Assembly: GCF_003390325.1 (NCBI RefSeq)
Contig: NZ_QUOK01000008.1
Coordinates: forward strand, 186,001-250,000
DNA: 64,000 nt
DNA from: Rhodohalobacter sp. SW132
GTDB lineage: Bacteria > Bacteroidota > Rhodothermia > Balneolales > Balneolaceae
Reading direction: 5' to 3'
A program made the translations under genes and the position numbers. Positions 7,374 to 31,058 of this stretch are shown here, one piece after another. Under the pieces are notes generated by a model. It was not told the DNA's origin. It was given only the letters and a program-made list of their open reading frames with translations, and did no database searches. Positions within the stretch are counted from its first letter, which is position 1. Every line of letters begins with the position of its first letter.

Positions 7374-7624
7374 AAAAGTCTCCCTTTGAGAGGGTGTGAG
7401 GAAATACTTAATAAAGAAGATATCGGCCATTTATTTTTACCACGAAAACGCAAAGCCACGAGGGTACACGAAGTATAACAAAATCAAATTACTAGCCTTC
7501 GTGATTCCTAATGTCATCGTGACTTCGTGGTAAAGTAGAATGTGTTTTTTAAATGCTTGTTGATTTATTTTCTCACAGCCTCTCGAAGGGGAAGCGATCC
7601 CGCCAGCTGTCGAAGGGACACTCC
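7374..7624. repeat. Inverted-repeat element, copy A (diverged, reverse orientation)
   Basis: The left arm (7374-7400, AAAAGTCTCCCTTTGAGAGG...) is inversely repeated at 7572-7592 (CTCACAGCCTCTCGAAGGGG). The outer right end, read on the minus strand, begins GGAGTGTCCC as copy C does. The interior holds nested dyads: TACCACGAA (7438-7446) with TTCGTGGTA (7524-7532), and CACGAAG (7467-7473) with CTTCGTG (7498-7504). It fills the 343-base gap between the transporter and nitrate reductase genes and has no coding capacity. Confidence 0.6.
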
Positions 7625-10600: not shown

Positions 10601-11175
10601 TGGGAGAAATTGCCGAGCATCGCGGAAAACTGAACGGAATTACAGCCGCTGCGGAACAACAGGCGGATATAGTAGCCAAAAACCTGGCGGGAGATTCTCT
10701 TGCCTTATACGATGGCTCCATCAGCATGAATATTCTCAAGTTTTCGGATCTGGACCTCTGTTCTATCGGGCTGCCGGTTGTGCCATCCGGAGAAAAGGGA
10801 TATGAAGAGATTCTCTTTATTGACAAATCACAGCAATATTATAAGAAATGCATCATCAAGGATGACCGGCTGGTAGGTGCGATTCTGATGGGGGATAAAG
10901 ATGAATTTGCTGAATTTAAAAGCCTGATAGAATCAAAAATGGAACTGTCCGATTTACGGAAACAGCTGTTACGTTCGGGTAAATCGAGGGACCCGGTTAT
11001 CGGGAAAACCGTTTGTTCCTGTAACCATGTGGGCCGGGGGAATATTGAAAAACTGATTGAAAACGGATGTGAGGATTTTAATGATTTATGTGAAAAATCC
11101 GGAGCAGGACTTGGCTGCGGAAGCTGTAAACCAGAGGTGCAGCAGATACTGAACGAAAAATTTGTATTAGCATGA
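7648..11175 (+). CDS. nasA: Fusion assimilatory nitrate reductase (MopB + FAD reductase + BFD)
   Basis: This 1175-residue protein reduces nitrate to nitrite. I take ATG 7648 as the start; a TTG three codons upstream is less likely. The N-terminal [4Fe-4S] ligands are C13, C16, C20 and C48. The catalytic Mo ligand is probably C142 (SRLCMSS). The molybdopterin and dinucleotide-binding domains run to about residue 700. From about 710 a complete FAD/NAD(P)H reductase follows (IIVIGAGASS; IIGGGLLGLELAAAL), similar in layout to the NirB N-terminus. A BFD [2Fe-2S] domain ends the protein (VCSCNH ... GCGSCKPE, from about 1122). The separate electron-donor subunit of other systems is therefore built in. 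The last four bases overlap the next gene. Confidence 0.92.
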   Translation: MSGNQPESYKTTCSYCGVGCGIVVNKDHKGNISVQGDPDHPVNKGKLCSKGLNLKYVVEDQSDRLLYPEMKWSKAHPFKRVSWDTAMERAAAAFTSIQKKYGPDSVGFYVSGQCLTEGYYLANKLVKGFLGTNNIDTNSRLCMSSAVAAYKKMLGEDAVPICYDDIEQADCFFITGANPAWCHPILFRRIEQHKAENPNVKIIVADPRKTQSCELADLHLPLNPGTDIYLCNAIARVLIERGDINPEFIENHVDGFDEYRKSVFKYSVEESAQICGLETDQILQAASWIGDAEGFITMWAMGLNQSAIGVKKNFALISLNLITGQIGKPGAGPFSLTGQPNAMGGREVGGMASLLAAHKDLSNPQHRQEVADFWDVPGIQEKPGYTATEMFDALDEGKLKAVWIIATNPMVSLPDVNKAERALKKASFVVVQDISRKSDTLEYADLILPAAGHMEKEGTMTNSERRIGHLQKIVDPPGEALPDSEILMRFAKAMGFHGFDFETTGEIFEEYSRLTAGTNINISGLKYEHLQAQNTVQWPLNNLHSSGQKRLFTDHTFYTDNGKAQLFPLDSPANTSKKPTDKFPLVLTTGRIRDQWHTMTKTGKVSKLKQHISKPFLQIHPKDAANRNIKDGENIRILNSRGEVKVHARVTEDVRKGLVFLPMHWGKLNGKSTARANNLTRNLIDPISKEPDFKYSTVQVEKITKEKEKIIVIGAGASSYRFVNTYRELNQTDEIHVFSNEPTPFYNRVLLPEYVTEHLSWEDLLKFKKNEIDKLNIHLYDSTSVTSIDRGNKTITDDSGQIHSYDKLIAGTGSRAFVPPNEPVDEPGVFTMRTRADADALKKYVNNGAHVLIIGGGLLGLELAAALTEIDIDITIVQLASRLMERQLDALSAELLMEFVEQKGITVHVNDQVKQIHTQAHPEYIPEEGIGAILKSGKKLHCDAVVFAIGTRPNIEILKEAGVDCGRGVLVDDTLQTSDPSIFAMGEIAEHRGKLNGITAAAEQQADIVAKNLAGDSLALYDGSISMNILKFSDLDLCSIGLPVVPSGEKGYEEILFIDKSQQYYKKCIIKDDRLVGAILMGDKDEFAEFKSLIESKMELSDLRKQLLRSGKSRDPVIGKTVCSCNHVGRGNIEKLIENGCEDFNDLCEKSGAGLGCGSCKPEVQQILNEKFVLA

Positions 11176-12659
11176 ATAATAATAACAATGCGATCCCAAC
11201 ACCTCTTGTACGGGTTTTTGTAAAAGGTGGCGTCATATCACCGGCAGATCTGATCCGTATTATGGAAGCTTCCGGCAAAGCTGGTAATTCCTATGTCATG
11301 TTTGGGTCCCGCCAGGATATTCTGTTTCCGGTAGTGGATTCGGATGAAGAAAATGTTCGCTCTCATCTTGATGAAACAGGATTGAAATACAATTTTACCG
11401 ATTCCCAGCTCCTGAAAGCACCCTTACAGTATGAAAATATAGTAAGTTCCTATGTGGCCGTTAACATCACAGATAACACCTGGTGGCTGAAGGAAGACAT
11501 ATTTCACTATATACTCGACAGTTTCGATTATCAGCCTGTTTTGAAGGTGAATATTATCGATCCTATCCAAAGCCTGGTGCCTCTTTTTACCGGTCATTTA
11601 AACTTTATCGCCTCAAAACAGGAGCATTACTGGCATCTTTTTATTCGCCAGCCAACTGAAAACGGGAATAAAGCTCCTACACCCTGGCCTGCCCTGATCC
11701 ATGAAAATGAGATCGCCGTTATCGCTAAAGAAATTGAAAAAAAACTGAAAAAGTCTCCGGGGATGAATCATCGTCGTTTATTCGACGCAGTACAAAATGG
11801 TTCAACGTTCCACAGCGTAACTGCTGATGAAGAGATCGCATCGCCAACTGCCCTGTTCCCTTATTATGAAGGATTAAATGCAATGCAGAATAATTTATTC
11901 TGGCTCGGTTTATACTGGAGGAATAATTGTTTTGATATTGAATTTCTAAAAGACGCCTGTCGATTATGCCAGGAAACGAAAGTGGGCAAAATCAGCATCA
12001 CTCCGTGGAAATCTTTTATTATTAAAGGAATCCACCCAAAAAAACGGATTTACTGGGAAAAACTGATGGGCAGGTATGGCATTAATTTGCGCCACTCCTC
12101 ATTGGAACTGAACTGGCATCTGCCCGTGATGGATGAAGAGGCTCTGAAACTCAAAACCTATCTTGTGAGGGAACTGGATCAGCAGGATATCAGCACACAT
12201 GGGCTTACGTTTACAATCAAAACAAATCCCGATATGCTGTTGTTCACATCTGTGGTGATTGAAAAATCGTCGGAGACATCAGGGCTGAATGGCGAACCGT
12301 TATATAATATACTTTATGCACGTGATTTTAATCCGAATCATTCAGAATATTTCAATTTTTCCAAACATGTTGAAAAACGCCAGCTTCCGACTTTGCTGAT
12401 TAAATTAAGTAAGATCTATTTCCAGCAGCTGGCTACAGAAGAACCGGATGAAATTAAAACTGTATTTGAAAAAAAGAGTTCATATAAACAGGTTTCGAGC
12501 TATCAATGCAGCAATTGTATGACCGTATATGACAAAAAATATGGCGCCCCCGATAGCGGCGTAAAACCCGGAACACCTTTTGATCAATTACCCGGTGATT
12601 ATATCTGTCCGCTGTGCAGCAGTGCCAAAACAGAATTTATTCCGCTGGTTGAATATTAA
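11172..12659 (+). CDS. Siroheme-less sulfite/nitrite reductase-like protein with rubredoxin tail
   Basis: This 495-residue protein overlaps the nitrate reductase gene by ATGA, which indicates translational coupling. Residues about 10-70 (VKGGVISPADLIRI...GSRQDILF) and about 245-300 (KISITPWKSFIIKGI) resemble the two ferredoxin-like half domains of nitrite/sulfite reductases. In the catalytic domain between and after them, the C-x5-C and C-x3-C ligands for the [4Fe-4S]-siroheme centre are absent; there is no cysteine between residue 1 and the NNC near 258. A complete rubredoxin follows at the C-terminus with C446-x2-C449 and C479-x2-C482. I infer an electron-transfer or scaffold subunit of nitrate reductase rather than an enzyme. 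The rubredoxin call is firm; the fold call rests on motif spacing. Confidence 0.75.
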   Translation: MNNNNNAIPTPLVRVFVKGGVISPADLIRIMEASGKAGNSYVMFGSRQDILFPVVDSDEENVRSHLDETGLKYNFTDSQLLKAPLQYENIVSSYVAVNITDNTWWLKEDIFHYILDSFDYQPVLKVNIIDPIQSLVPLFTGHLNFIASKQEHYWHLFIRQPTENGNKAPTPWPALIHENEIAVIAKEIEKKLKKSPGMNHRRLFDAVQNGSTFHSVTADEEIASPTALFPYYEGLNAMQNNLFWLGLYWRNNCFDIEFLKDACRLCQETKVGKISITPWKSFIIKGIHPKKRIYWEKLMGRYGINLRHSSLELNWHLPVMDEEALKLKTYLVRELDQQDISTHGLTFTIKTNPDMLLFTSVVIEKSSETSGLNGEPLYNILYARDFNPNHSEYFNFSKHVEKRQLPTLLIKLSKIYFQQLATEEPDEIKTVFEKKSSYKQVSSYQCSNCMTVYDKKYGAPDSGVKPGTPFDQLPGDYICPLCSSAKTEFIPLVEY

Positions 12660-12707
12660 TGAGGAAAAAGCTTAATTACCTGAGTTCGATTCATAAATTA
12701 AGATTTT

Positions 12708-12852
12708 AAAAGTCCCCTTTGAAGGGGGCAATGGGGGATGAACAGTAGTGAAATTAAAGCCATAAATTAAATATTTGGATCAAATCAACGCTCAGCGGAT
12801 CATCCCCCAAGGCTCTTTCGAGCCTTTTCCCCCTTCTAAGGGGGACTTTTTT
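12708..12852. repeat. Inverted-repeat element, copy B
   Basis: The arms pair almost end to end: AAAAGTCCCC (from 12708) with GGGGGACTTTT (to 12852), AAGGGGG (12722-12728) with CCCCCTT (12829-12835), and GGGGGATGA (12733-12741) with TCATCCCCC (12800-12808). A side hairpin interrupts the right arm: AAGGCTC (12809-12815), loop TTTC, GAGCCTT (12820-12826). Copy C at 30833 has the same layout with a different side-hairpin sequence. It lies between the rubredoxin protein and hemD and could also end transcription. Confidence 0.8.
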
Positions 12853-12950
12853 ATCCATCGATTTTATCTTGAACTCACGTTAATTTATAGTTAAATCTAT
12901 ACTCTATTTCTCTCTGTTGATACTCATCCGGACTAAAAATTTATTCAGAT

Positions 12951-13796
12951 ATGACATCAGATAAACCACTATCGGGATTAAATGCTGTTTGTTTTGAAAG
13001 CCGATTATCCGAATCAGCCGCCAATCTTCTTGAGAAATATGGAGCGAATGTGATCAGTGCTCCCTCTATGCAGGAAGTGCCGCTCGAAAAGCACGACGAA
13101 GTTTTCGGGTTCGGTAAAAAACTTTTTAACGGTGAGATTGATATTCTCATCTGTACAACCGGCGTAGGTACTCAAATGCTGATTAATGCCCTCGAAACAA
13201 GGTATGAGCTGGAGAAAATACTGGACGCATTGAGAAGTGTCACAATTGTGGTTCGAGGGCCCAAACCAATTCGGGTACTAAAAAAATACAAGGTGTCGTT
13301 TGAGGTTACCGTACCCGCCCCTAATACATGGAAGGAGATTCTTGAATCGATGGATAATGATGAACAGACCAGCAGCCTGACAGAAAAAACAGTGGCGGTA
13401 CAGGAGTATGGTGAATCAAATGATGATCTCCTTCGTGAACTCAAACAGAGAGGAGCTGTCGTTTTACCGGTACGCGTATACCGCTGGGAATTACCGGATG
13501 ACACGAAACCTTTGATGAAGGGCATACAGGCCGTCTTGGATGGAAATGTAGCGATGGCGCTTTTTACAAGTAAAACGCAAATTGATCATGTTATGCAGGT
13601 GGCATCGGAAAAAGGGATGGAAAGCCCCTTGAAGGAAGCCATGAATAATCTTTTCGTTGCTTCAATCGGTCCAGTTTGCACCGGCGGACTTCATTCGTAT
13701 GGAATCAAGGTAGATTTTGAGCCTACACGATCTAAACTTGGTGTTTTTGTAAGAGAAATAAGTCATGAATTTGAAGATCCTTCCTCACAACTTTAA
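12951..13796 (+). CDS. hemD: Uroporphyrinogen-III synthase
   Basis: This 281-residue cytosolic protein is of the HemD family, which cyclises hydroxymethylbilane to uroporphyrinogen III, the precursor of siroheme and heme. It has the two-lobed alternating layout: 'ICTTGVGTQMLINAL' in lobe 1, and 'VYRWELPDD', 'ALFTSKTQIDHVM' and 'VASIGPVCTGGLHSYGIKVDFEP' in lobe 2. The last segment is the most typical HemD stretch. It sits 291 bases after the nitrate genes on the same strand, which suits siroheme supply for NirB. No siroheme synthase or methyltransferase is in the window. It may be a pathway-dedicated paralogue of a housekeeping hemD; I cannot tell from here. Confidence 0.85.
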   Translation: MTSDKPLSGLNAVCFESRLSESAANLLEKYGANVISAPSMQEVPLEKHDEVFGFGKKLFNGEIDILICTTGVGTQMLINALETRYELEKILDALRSVTIVVRGPKPIRVLKKYKVSFEVTVPAPNTWKEILESMDNDEQTSSLTEKTVAVQEYGESNDDLLRELKQRGAVVLPVRVYRWELPDDTKPLMKGIQAVLDGNVAMALFTSKTQIDHVMQVASEKGMESPLKEAMNNLFVASIGPVCTGGLHSYGIKVDFEPTRSKLGVFVREISHEFEDPSSQL

Positions 13797-30754: not shown

Positions 30755-31058
30755 TTGGAATCCCGGTAAGTTATCTTCAGAGATGAGTACAATTCCTATG
30801 GTATTTAATTCTATTGATTGAAATAATTTAAAGGAGTGTCCCCCCTCTCGAAGGGGCAATGGGGGATGAAGTGTAGAGTTTTGAGCTCTAAAAATACGTT
30901 ATTGTTTGAATCAAGGCTATCAGGTCATCCCCCTGACACACTTTGTGTGTCTTTCCCCCTTCAAAGGGGGACTCTTAAAAACCTAATTTATTAATCAAAC
31001 TGAGGTTTCAGGCGTTTCGGTTATATATAGGATAGAACCCGATCTAAATCCACGTTCG
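30755..31058. other. Convergent intergenic region holding repeat copy C
   Basis: This 304-base gap between cysM and the convergent 5'-nucleotidase is mostly the inverted repeat listed separately. The flanking bases are AT-rich and show no gene. Confidence 0.6.
30833..30977. repeat. Inverted-repeat element, copy C
   Basis: The layout is that of copy B: GAGTGTCCCCCC pairs with GGGGGACTC, AAGGGG with CCCCTT, and GGGGGATGA with TCATCCCCC. The side hairpin is GACACAC (30935-30941), loop TTT, GTGTGTC (30945-30951). It replaces the AAGGCTC/GAGCCTT stem of copy B, so the pairing is kept while the bases differ. A further small hairpin (TAGAG/CTCTA) lies in the central loop. Confidence 0.8.

Follow-up and report, generated by a model that had tools for sequence, protein, structure and literature searches.

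Palindromic repeats between genes rank among the most frequent features of bacterial genomes that still lack an explanation. Two copies of one such repeat, B and C, lie in the 64,000-nucleotide stretch of Rhodohalobacter sp. SW132 DNA analyzed here (the window), and they raise the question of what they are and what moves them. An earlier note, made from the letters of the window, had described both as intergenic, about 145 bp long and built on a common arm pairing. Its coordinates (12708-12852 for B, 30833-30977 for C), arms and differing side hairpins were all confirmed; both copies also have outer palindromes, and the side hairpin is at the right end only. The features are as follows.

11172-12659, plus strand: NIR_SIR_ferr and rubredoxin protein, a neighbor outside the element
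12708-12852, unstranded: copy B, complete and probably non-autonomous element of about 145 bp
12714-12728, unstranded: left outer palindrome of copy B, CCCCTTTGAAGGGGG
12733-12741, minus strand: left inner arm of copy B (GGGGGATGA), set off from the palindrome by CAAT, without a side hairpin
12800-12808, plus strand: right inner arm of copy B, TCATCCCCC
12809-12826, unstranded: side hairpin of copy B, AAGGCTC-TTTC-GAGCCTT, right end only (p = 0.007 versus shuffles)
12829-12844, unstranded: right outer palindrome of copy B, CCCCCTTCTAAGGGGG, followed by ACTTTTTT (terminator-like)
12951-13796, plus strand: hemD, uroporphyrinogen-III synthase (PF02602), a neighbor outside the element
30833-30977, unstranded: copy C, complete and probably non-autonomous element (genome match on contig C8, 216842-216976)
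30842-30856, unstranded: left outer palindrome of copy C, CCCCTCTCGAAGGGG
30861-30869, minus strand: left inner arm of copy C (GGGGGATGA)
30924-30974, minus strand: match to Rfam RF01762, 'whalefall-1 RNA', which is the right end unit of copy C (palindrome, side hairpin and arm)
30925-30933, plus strand: right inner arm of copy C, TCATCCCCC
30935-30951, unstranded: side hairpin of copy C, GACACAC-TTT-GTGTGTC, right end only (p = 0.01 versus shuffles)
30955-30970, unstranded: right outer palindrome of copy C, CCCCCTTCAAAGGGGG

Each end unit consists of a C-rich/G-rich palindrome at the outer end, an optional side hairpin and an inner arm that pairs with the arm of the opposite end. The arms have five exact matches within the window, against 0.78 expected. 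When folded as DNA, B and C reached z scores of -7.1 and -5.6, respectively, and none of 200 shuffles of either was equally stable. Copy B is flanked by the NIR/rubredoxin gene and hemD, which run in the same direction, and copy C by a gene for a PLP enzyme and a convergent gene for a 5'-nucleotidase. About 25 to 40 bases beyond the palindromes, outer inverted words ACCTGAGTTC ... GAACTCACGTT were seen at loci L014 and L029 and around copy B (window 12680-12900).

Using copy B as query at E values up to 10, we searched the genome that contains the window (45 contigs totaling 5.08 Mb). The 68 matches merged into 39 places, the weakest of which are short and may be due to chance. The earlier note had made its proposal of a dispersed structured element, possibly non-autonomous and mobile, depend on the existence of further copies and on their side hairpins; the side inserts of the other copies were again mostly hairpins (19 of 34 fold, see below), B and C contain no gene, and the proposal of a dispersed, structured, non-autonomous and probably mobile element holds. 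Multiple dispersed gene-less copies with terminal inverted repeats, as seen at the 39 places, are one feature of MITEs. In the available text of a review, prokaryotic MITEs are likewise short, multi-copy, gene-less elements with inverted repeats, and they are traced mainly to IS elements (PMC10969869). In contrast, the partner gene of B/C-type elements encodes a nuclease. Neither B nor C showed a target-site duplication; at the hemF and leuS insertions described below, the empty-site junctions were too diverged to read one. A search of four genomes of the genus for an empty orthologous site of B or C returned element matches only.

At least 16 of the copies sit midway in a larger, REP-like composite repeat with hairpin ends TGAACTACCTCGGGGCAGAGCCCGCGAGGTATC ... 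GACCCAGAGGGTCGGGGAATTAAACCACTTATGATTAAA (contigs C3, C6, C14 and others of this genome, G000; loci L081-L110). This larger repeat has spread as a composite, and B and C lie outside it. Some copies are variants: nearly complete deletions, one palindrome on its own, and palindromes with additional hairpins in their tip (L081, L089, L106, L084). The composite paralogues L081, L089 and L106 were considered as clean empty sites and discarded, as they look like internal deletions or solo palindromes instead.

The nuclease gene in question encodes DUF559 (PF04480), still a domain of unknown function. The window's genome has four genes for this Vsr-like nuclease, two of which adjoin arms of the B/C type, one of them between two arms. 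A clean unit is found at L034, where the gene lies between CCCCCTTTGAAGGGGGCTGGGGGGATGA and TCATCCCCCTGTCCCCCTTCGAAGGGGG, with CTCCCCCTTTGAAGGGGGCTGGGGGGATGATC before it and GATCATCCCCCTGTCCCCCTTCGAAGGGGG after it, and where the ends have no side hairpin. The gene at L033 is preceded by a GGGGGCAATGGGGGATGA end, which is the typical left end of the gene-less copies; it forms an in-frame fusion with the end of hemD, and an inverted unit without a gene comes after it. At L031 and L032, DUF559 stands between repeats of other sequence with a similar layout of palindrome, side hairpin and arm. The closest DUF559 among the named genomes searched is 91% identical and belongs to a member of the Balneolaceae (L171), and relatives from the same family (L173, L177, L180) have both ends around the DUF559 gene, with differing side hairpins. 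We therefore regard B and C as probable non-autonomous (MITE-like) derivatives of elements in which one small DUF559 (Vsr-like PD-(D/E)XK) endonuclease gene lies between two inverted end units.

A comparable arrangement occurs in Escherichia coli, in which the DUF559 gene ycjD adjoins a palindrome, CCCCTCACCC...CCCTCTCCCC...GGGG, that is clear on one side only and is dispersed over a median of 17 places per genome. We take this palindrome to be BoxC, which on that assumption would resemble B/C-type ends in being both dispersed and found beside a DUF559 gene. BoxC of E. coli is listed as a 50-bp repeat family in the available text of PMC2267715.

The association was quantified as the score of the best inverted repeat formed between the two 350-base flanks of a gene, with a threshold of 29, the 99th percentile of 1475 control windows from the same regions as the first DUF559 set. 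In that set, which was drawn from better-scoring PF04480 matches, 44 of the 58 usable loci (60 regions) exceeded the 95th percentile and 38 the 99th. Scores above 29 were likewise obtained for 47 of 75 usable named loci (80 in all; control windows, 10/1065), for 18 of 22 usable loci (25 in all) from the phylum of a Syntrophaceae genome (control windows, 0/84), and for 10/10 usable loci of 13 from five further genomes, which repeat some of the named DUF559 loci (control windows, 0/34). Because L150 and L175 are one locus and the first set came from better-scoring matches, these sets are not fully independent. Small control ORFs in the same regions exceeded 29 in 1 case out of 51, and 20/58 and 28/75 DUF559 loci scored 29 or less. 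The association of DUF559 with such ends holds across several phyla. We had considered GIY-YIG genes as a neutral control, and rejected them in favor of the small ORFs and control windows since 12 of 23 usable GIY-YIG genes scored above 29 with repeat sequences of their own; flanking inverted repeats are thus not unique to DUF559.

The Rfam match of copy C bears on whether the end units act as RNA. The right end of C scored 38.8 bits against the RF01762 covariance model (gathering score, 37), and copy B was not listed at gathering; Rfam families scoring below gathering around copy B looked like chance hits, none of them convincing. 'Whalefall-1 RNA' was described as a non-coding RNA known from environmental sequences only, according to the available text of Weinberg et al. 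(2010; PMC2864571). Its layout (palindrome, short spacer, side hairpin of free sequence with a variable stem, and arm) is that of the end unit of B/C-type elements, as at copy C and several DUF559 elements, the difference being that here it makes up one end of a DNA element whose other end is its inverted counterpart. RF01762 matches were found at E ≤ 0.001 in at least 26 of 296 genomes of the phylum, at least 13 of which have matches above the cut-off. Among the genes and matches listed, 9 of 26 DUF559 genes in genomes with such matches had a whalefall-1 end within 600 bp, against 0.10 expected, and 5 of those 9 had such ends on both sides. 'Whalefall-1 RNA' is one end of DUF559-type elements.

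Thirteen whalefall-1-type units of equal or near-equal length, chosen from 30 loci, kept the named pairs in 90.9% of cells, a count that leans toward pairing, as a model of the same structure had served to find the units. Their covariation score was 0.486, versus 0.212 for shuffles (0/500 as high) and at most 0.156 for slid registers.

If B and C were instead transcribed regulatory RNAs or bidirectional terminators that spread for that reason, one would expect the terminator-like sites that both contain (two in B and one in C, versus 0.4 expected each), the Rfam listing of the end unit as a small RNA, and the position of copy C between convergent genes. However, the genes on either side of copy B share one direction, and end units occur in inverted pairs around nuclease genes and also in frame inside proteins. 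Because they enclose protein genes, stand in frame inside proteins and pair across a gene, the end units fit DNA ends better than RNA, and we consider spread as an RNA or terminator very unlikely. A secondary role as regulatory RNA may still attach to the terminator-like hairpins of what are probably ends of DUF559-type DNA elements.

The earlier note had interpreted the differing side hairpins of B and C as covariation. Pairing is indeed kept with different bases, but B and C differ over the entire hairpin in both sequence and length, which argues for replacement of the whole hairpin rather than base-by-base compensation. We scanned the collected loci for arm, insert and palindrome, with no hairpin required of the insert, and obtained 119 distinct units with 61 distinct inserts, which were either 1 to 6 bases long (such as ATTG) or mostly 17 to 34 bases. 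Among inserts of at least 17 bases, 19 of 34 distinct sequences were more stable as folded DNA than their shuffles (p ≤ 0.05). At the level of clusters, 9/14 folded significantly (combined Fisher p = 3e-9, with crude clustering). Ten of the 15 inserts without significant folding belong to one class that reads GYGARC-GNA-GYGARC on the other strand, where it would fold into a GNA-loop hairpin containing tandem G-A mismatches; both motifs are stable in DNA. At the 13 distinct sites of this class, pair 5-11 is A-T in 10 and G-C in 3, with no mismatch, and pair 2-14 is C-G in 10, T-A in 2 and T-G in 1; nine of the 13 sites are identical. True paired substitutions are thus found in this subclass and in the whalefall-1-type ends. 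In other sequence types, side inserts are mostly short, and 4/14 and 5/6 inserts were significant, the search pattern having joined some across unrelated repeats. The side hairpin is kept as a shape, mostly by replacing the whole hairpin and less by base-by-base compensation. At L084, L106 and L013, the terminal palindrome or the side hairpin contains further hairpins (CCCGACAGCTGTCGGG, CCGCGGGCATCCCTTCGGGGG), a possible route for whole-hairpin exchange.

Loci and genomes were compared for signs of mobility. Pairs of DUF559 loci with only the element in common were found on one contig (L227/L245 and, separately, L200/L229), within one MAG (L192/L197), and between a planctomycete and a deltaproteobacterial MAG (L207/L247, 85% identity over 453 bp, with contamination possible). 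In L227/L245 and L207/L247, homology runs as far as the outer edges of the terminal palindromes and no further. It extends past the palindromes in L200/L229 and L192/L197, in the latter up to separate outer inverted repeats, AATGCGAATT...AATTCGCATT, which bound the duplicated unit and have 3-bp direct repeats outside them (read by eye). Four of 12 congeners carry the element at the hemE-hemF junction and eight lack it; in those four, the right end reads in frame into HemF (read by eye). In leuS, besides the case of genome G056, an insert was present in 1 of the 13 genomes examined and missing in 12, one of which has a single end. According to Pfam, DUF559 lies inside or is fused to LeuS, two HsdR, HsdM, two other methyltransferases, a GATase_5 protein and HemD. 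Many DUF559 domains occur in frame within restriction-modification proteins (HsdR, HsdM and methyltransferases), as at L050, L051, L056, L063 and L071, which may reflect either tolerance of such insertions or targeting.

Such sites recall homing endonucleases. DUF559 could be a passenger, or a homing-type nuclease that settled in and is carried by hairpin repeats that another enzyme moves. A profile of four DUF559 sequences matched PDB entry 3hrl at E = 8.6e-25 and the homing endonuclease entry 3r3p ('mobile intron protein') at E = 1.3e-5. One DUF559 gene has been assigned to the Vsr-like EDxHD homing endonuclease family in the available text of PMC9403480. The EDxHD enzyme of 3r3p, I-Bth0305I, is a sequence-related nuclease and shares with DUF559 elements the insertion inside conserved genes and the presence or absence between relatives; unlike it, DUF559 elements end in inverted repeats with hairpins, occur at many unrelated sites and have dispersed copies without the gene, and no intron or intein was seen at the DUF559 element loci examined. 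Because of the boundary repeats of L192/L197 and the copies within the REP-like outer repeat, some copies were spread by something else, and these two observations keep the passenger or homing explanation alive as the main rival. We nevertheless hold it to be unlikely, as homology stops at the DUF559 palindromes in L227/L245 and L207/L247, the same end architecture accompanies DUF559 in several phyla, and the arms are missing from all seven loci of the genome that encode a Y1 transposase.

Those loci had a particular bearing on the enzyme, since the earlier note had suggested a REP-associated transposase (RAYT) as partner. REPs moved by an IS200/IS605-like Y1 transposase would be consistent with the seven Y1_Tnp matches of the genome, with the hairpin-ended outer repeat around many copies, and with the inverted repeats that flank the Y1 loci themselves (5 of 6 score 30 or more). 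However, the arms and palindromes of B and C are missing from all seven loci, each of about 3 kb, and B and C lie outside the outer composite. The suggestion of a RAYT was thus not borne out, the associated gene being that of the DUF559 nuclease, and we give an origin of B and C as REPs only the slightest chance, the smallest of the alternatives. By analogy, RAYT/REP would nonetheless be the closest working parallel to DUF559-type elements. In the available text of Nunvar et al. (2010; PMC2817692), a small nuclease-type gene lies between two inverted palindromic repeats that are also dispersed without the gene, and the palindromes change in sequence while keeping their pairing; the enzyme there is a HUH tyrosine (Y1) transposase, unrelated to DUF559. 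DUF559-type ends add the arm and the optional side hairpin.

A DUF559 gene enclosed by hairpin-forming inverted repeats is apparently a widespread and undescribed kind of bacterial mobile unit. The link of the repeats to DUF559 appears to be new: no paper tying DUF559 to inverted or mobile repeats was found in the open-licence literature searched. The DUF559 gene is under purifying selection, with dN/dS values of 0.04 to 0.28 in all 11 pairs. A Caulobacter DUF559 protein is reported, in the available text of PMC12907096, to cause an SOS response in cells without a methyltransferase, which suggests that at least one member damages DNA in vivo.

From the genomic comparisons, we propose that the ends are mobilized by DUF559. 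The protein would recognize the ends in their folded state, most likely that of a single strand or an extruded cruciform, and would nick there, after which the unit might be copied or joined elsewhere; gene-less copies such as B and C would be acted on in trans. The side hairpin would be a part of the end that is recognized by its shape, so that its sequence is free to be exchanged, and the model thereby offers a reason why shape and not sequence is conserved. Ends that are open as reading frames would make insertion into or before protein genes tolerable (hemD, hemF, leuS, hsdR, hsdM), which would aid persistence of the nuclease gene. With such a link, several orphan repeat families would gain an enzyme, an Rfam 'RNA' would be reinterpreted, the DUF559 domains within LeuS, HemD, HsdR, HsdM and methyltransferase proteins would be accounted for, and E. 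coli K-12, with ycjD and its neighboring repeats, would become a convenient test system.

A broader reading, for and against which we would give equal weight, joins these observations. In it, a bacterial superfamily of elements with hairpin ends would have DUF559 proteins as its dedicated mobility enzymes and would be an independently evolved second counterpart of RAYT/REP, whose gene-less ends have already been catalogued piecemeal ('whalefall-1 RNA', probably BoxC, and many unnamed CCCTCACCC...GGGAGAGGG repeats). As shape-recognized ends stay open as reading frames, the elements could live in essential genes, and a parallel system, with TGTCATCCTGAG...TCGAAGGATGA ends, may belong to GIY-YIG nucleases. 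The stand-alone GIY-YIG loci L272, L273, L275, L276, L285 and L300 have inverted repeats, several of which read TTGTCATCCTGAG...TCGAAGGATGA, and the GIY-YIG flanks hint at such a parallel nuclease-repeat system.

Two further repeats were observed. At L101 and L104, a different inverted-repeat element, GAGAGGCTGTGAGAA ... TTCTCACAGCCTCTC, lies in the tip of a CCCCCTT-AAGGGGG palindrome, and palindrome centers seem to attract insertions. In the window itself, the gap between ORFs at 7436-7534 contains an imperfect 38-base inverted repeat with a 23-base spacer.
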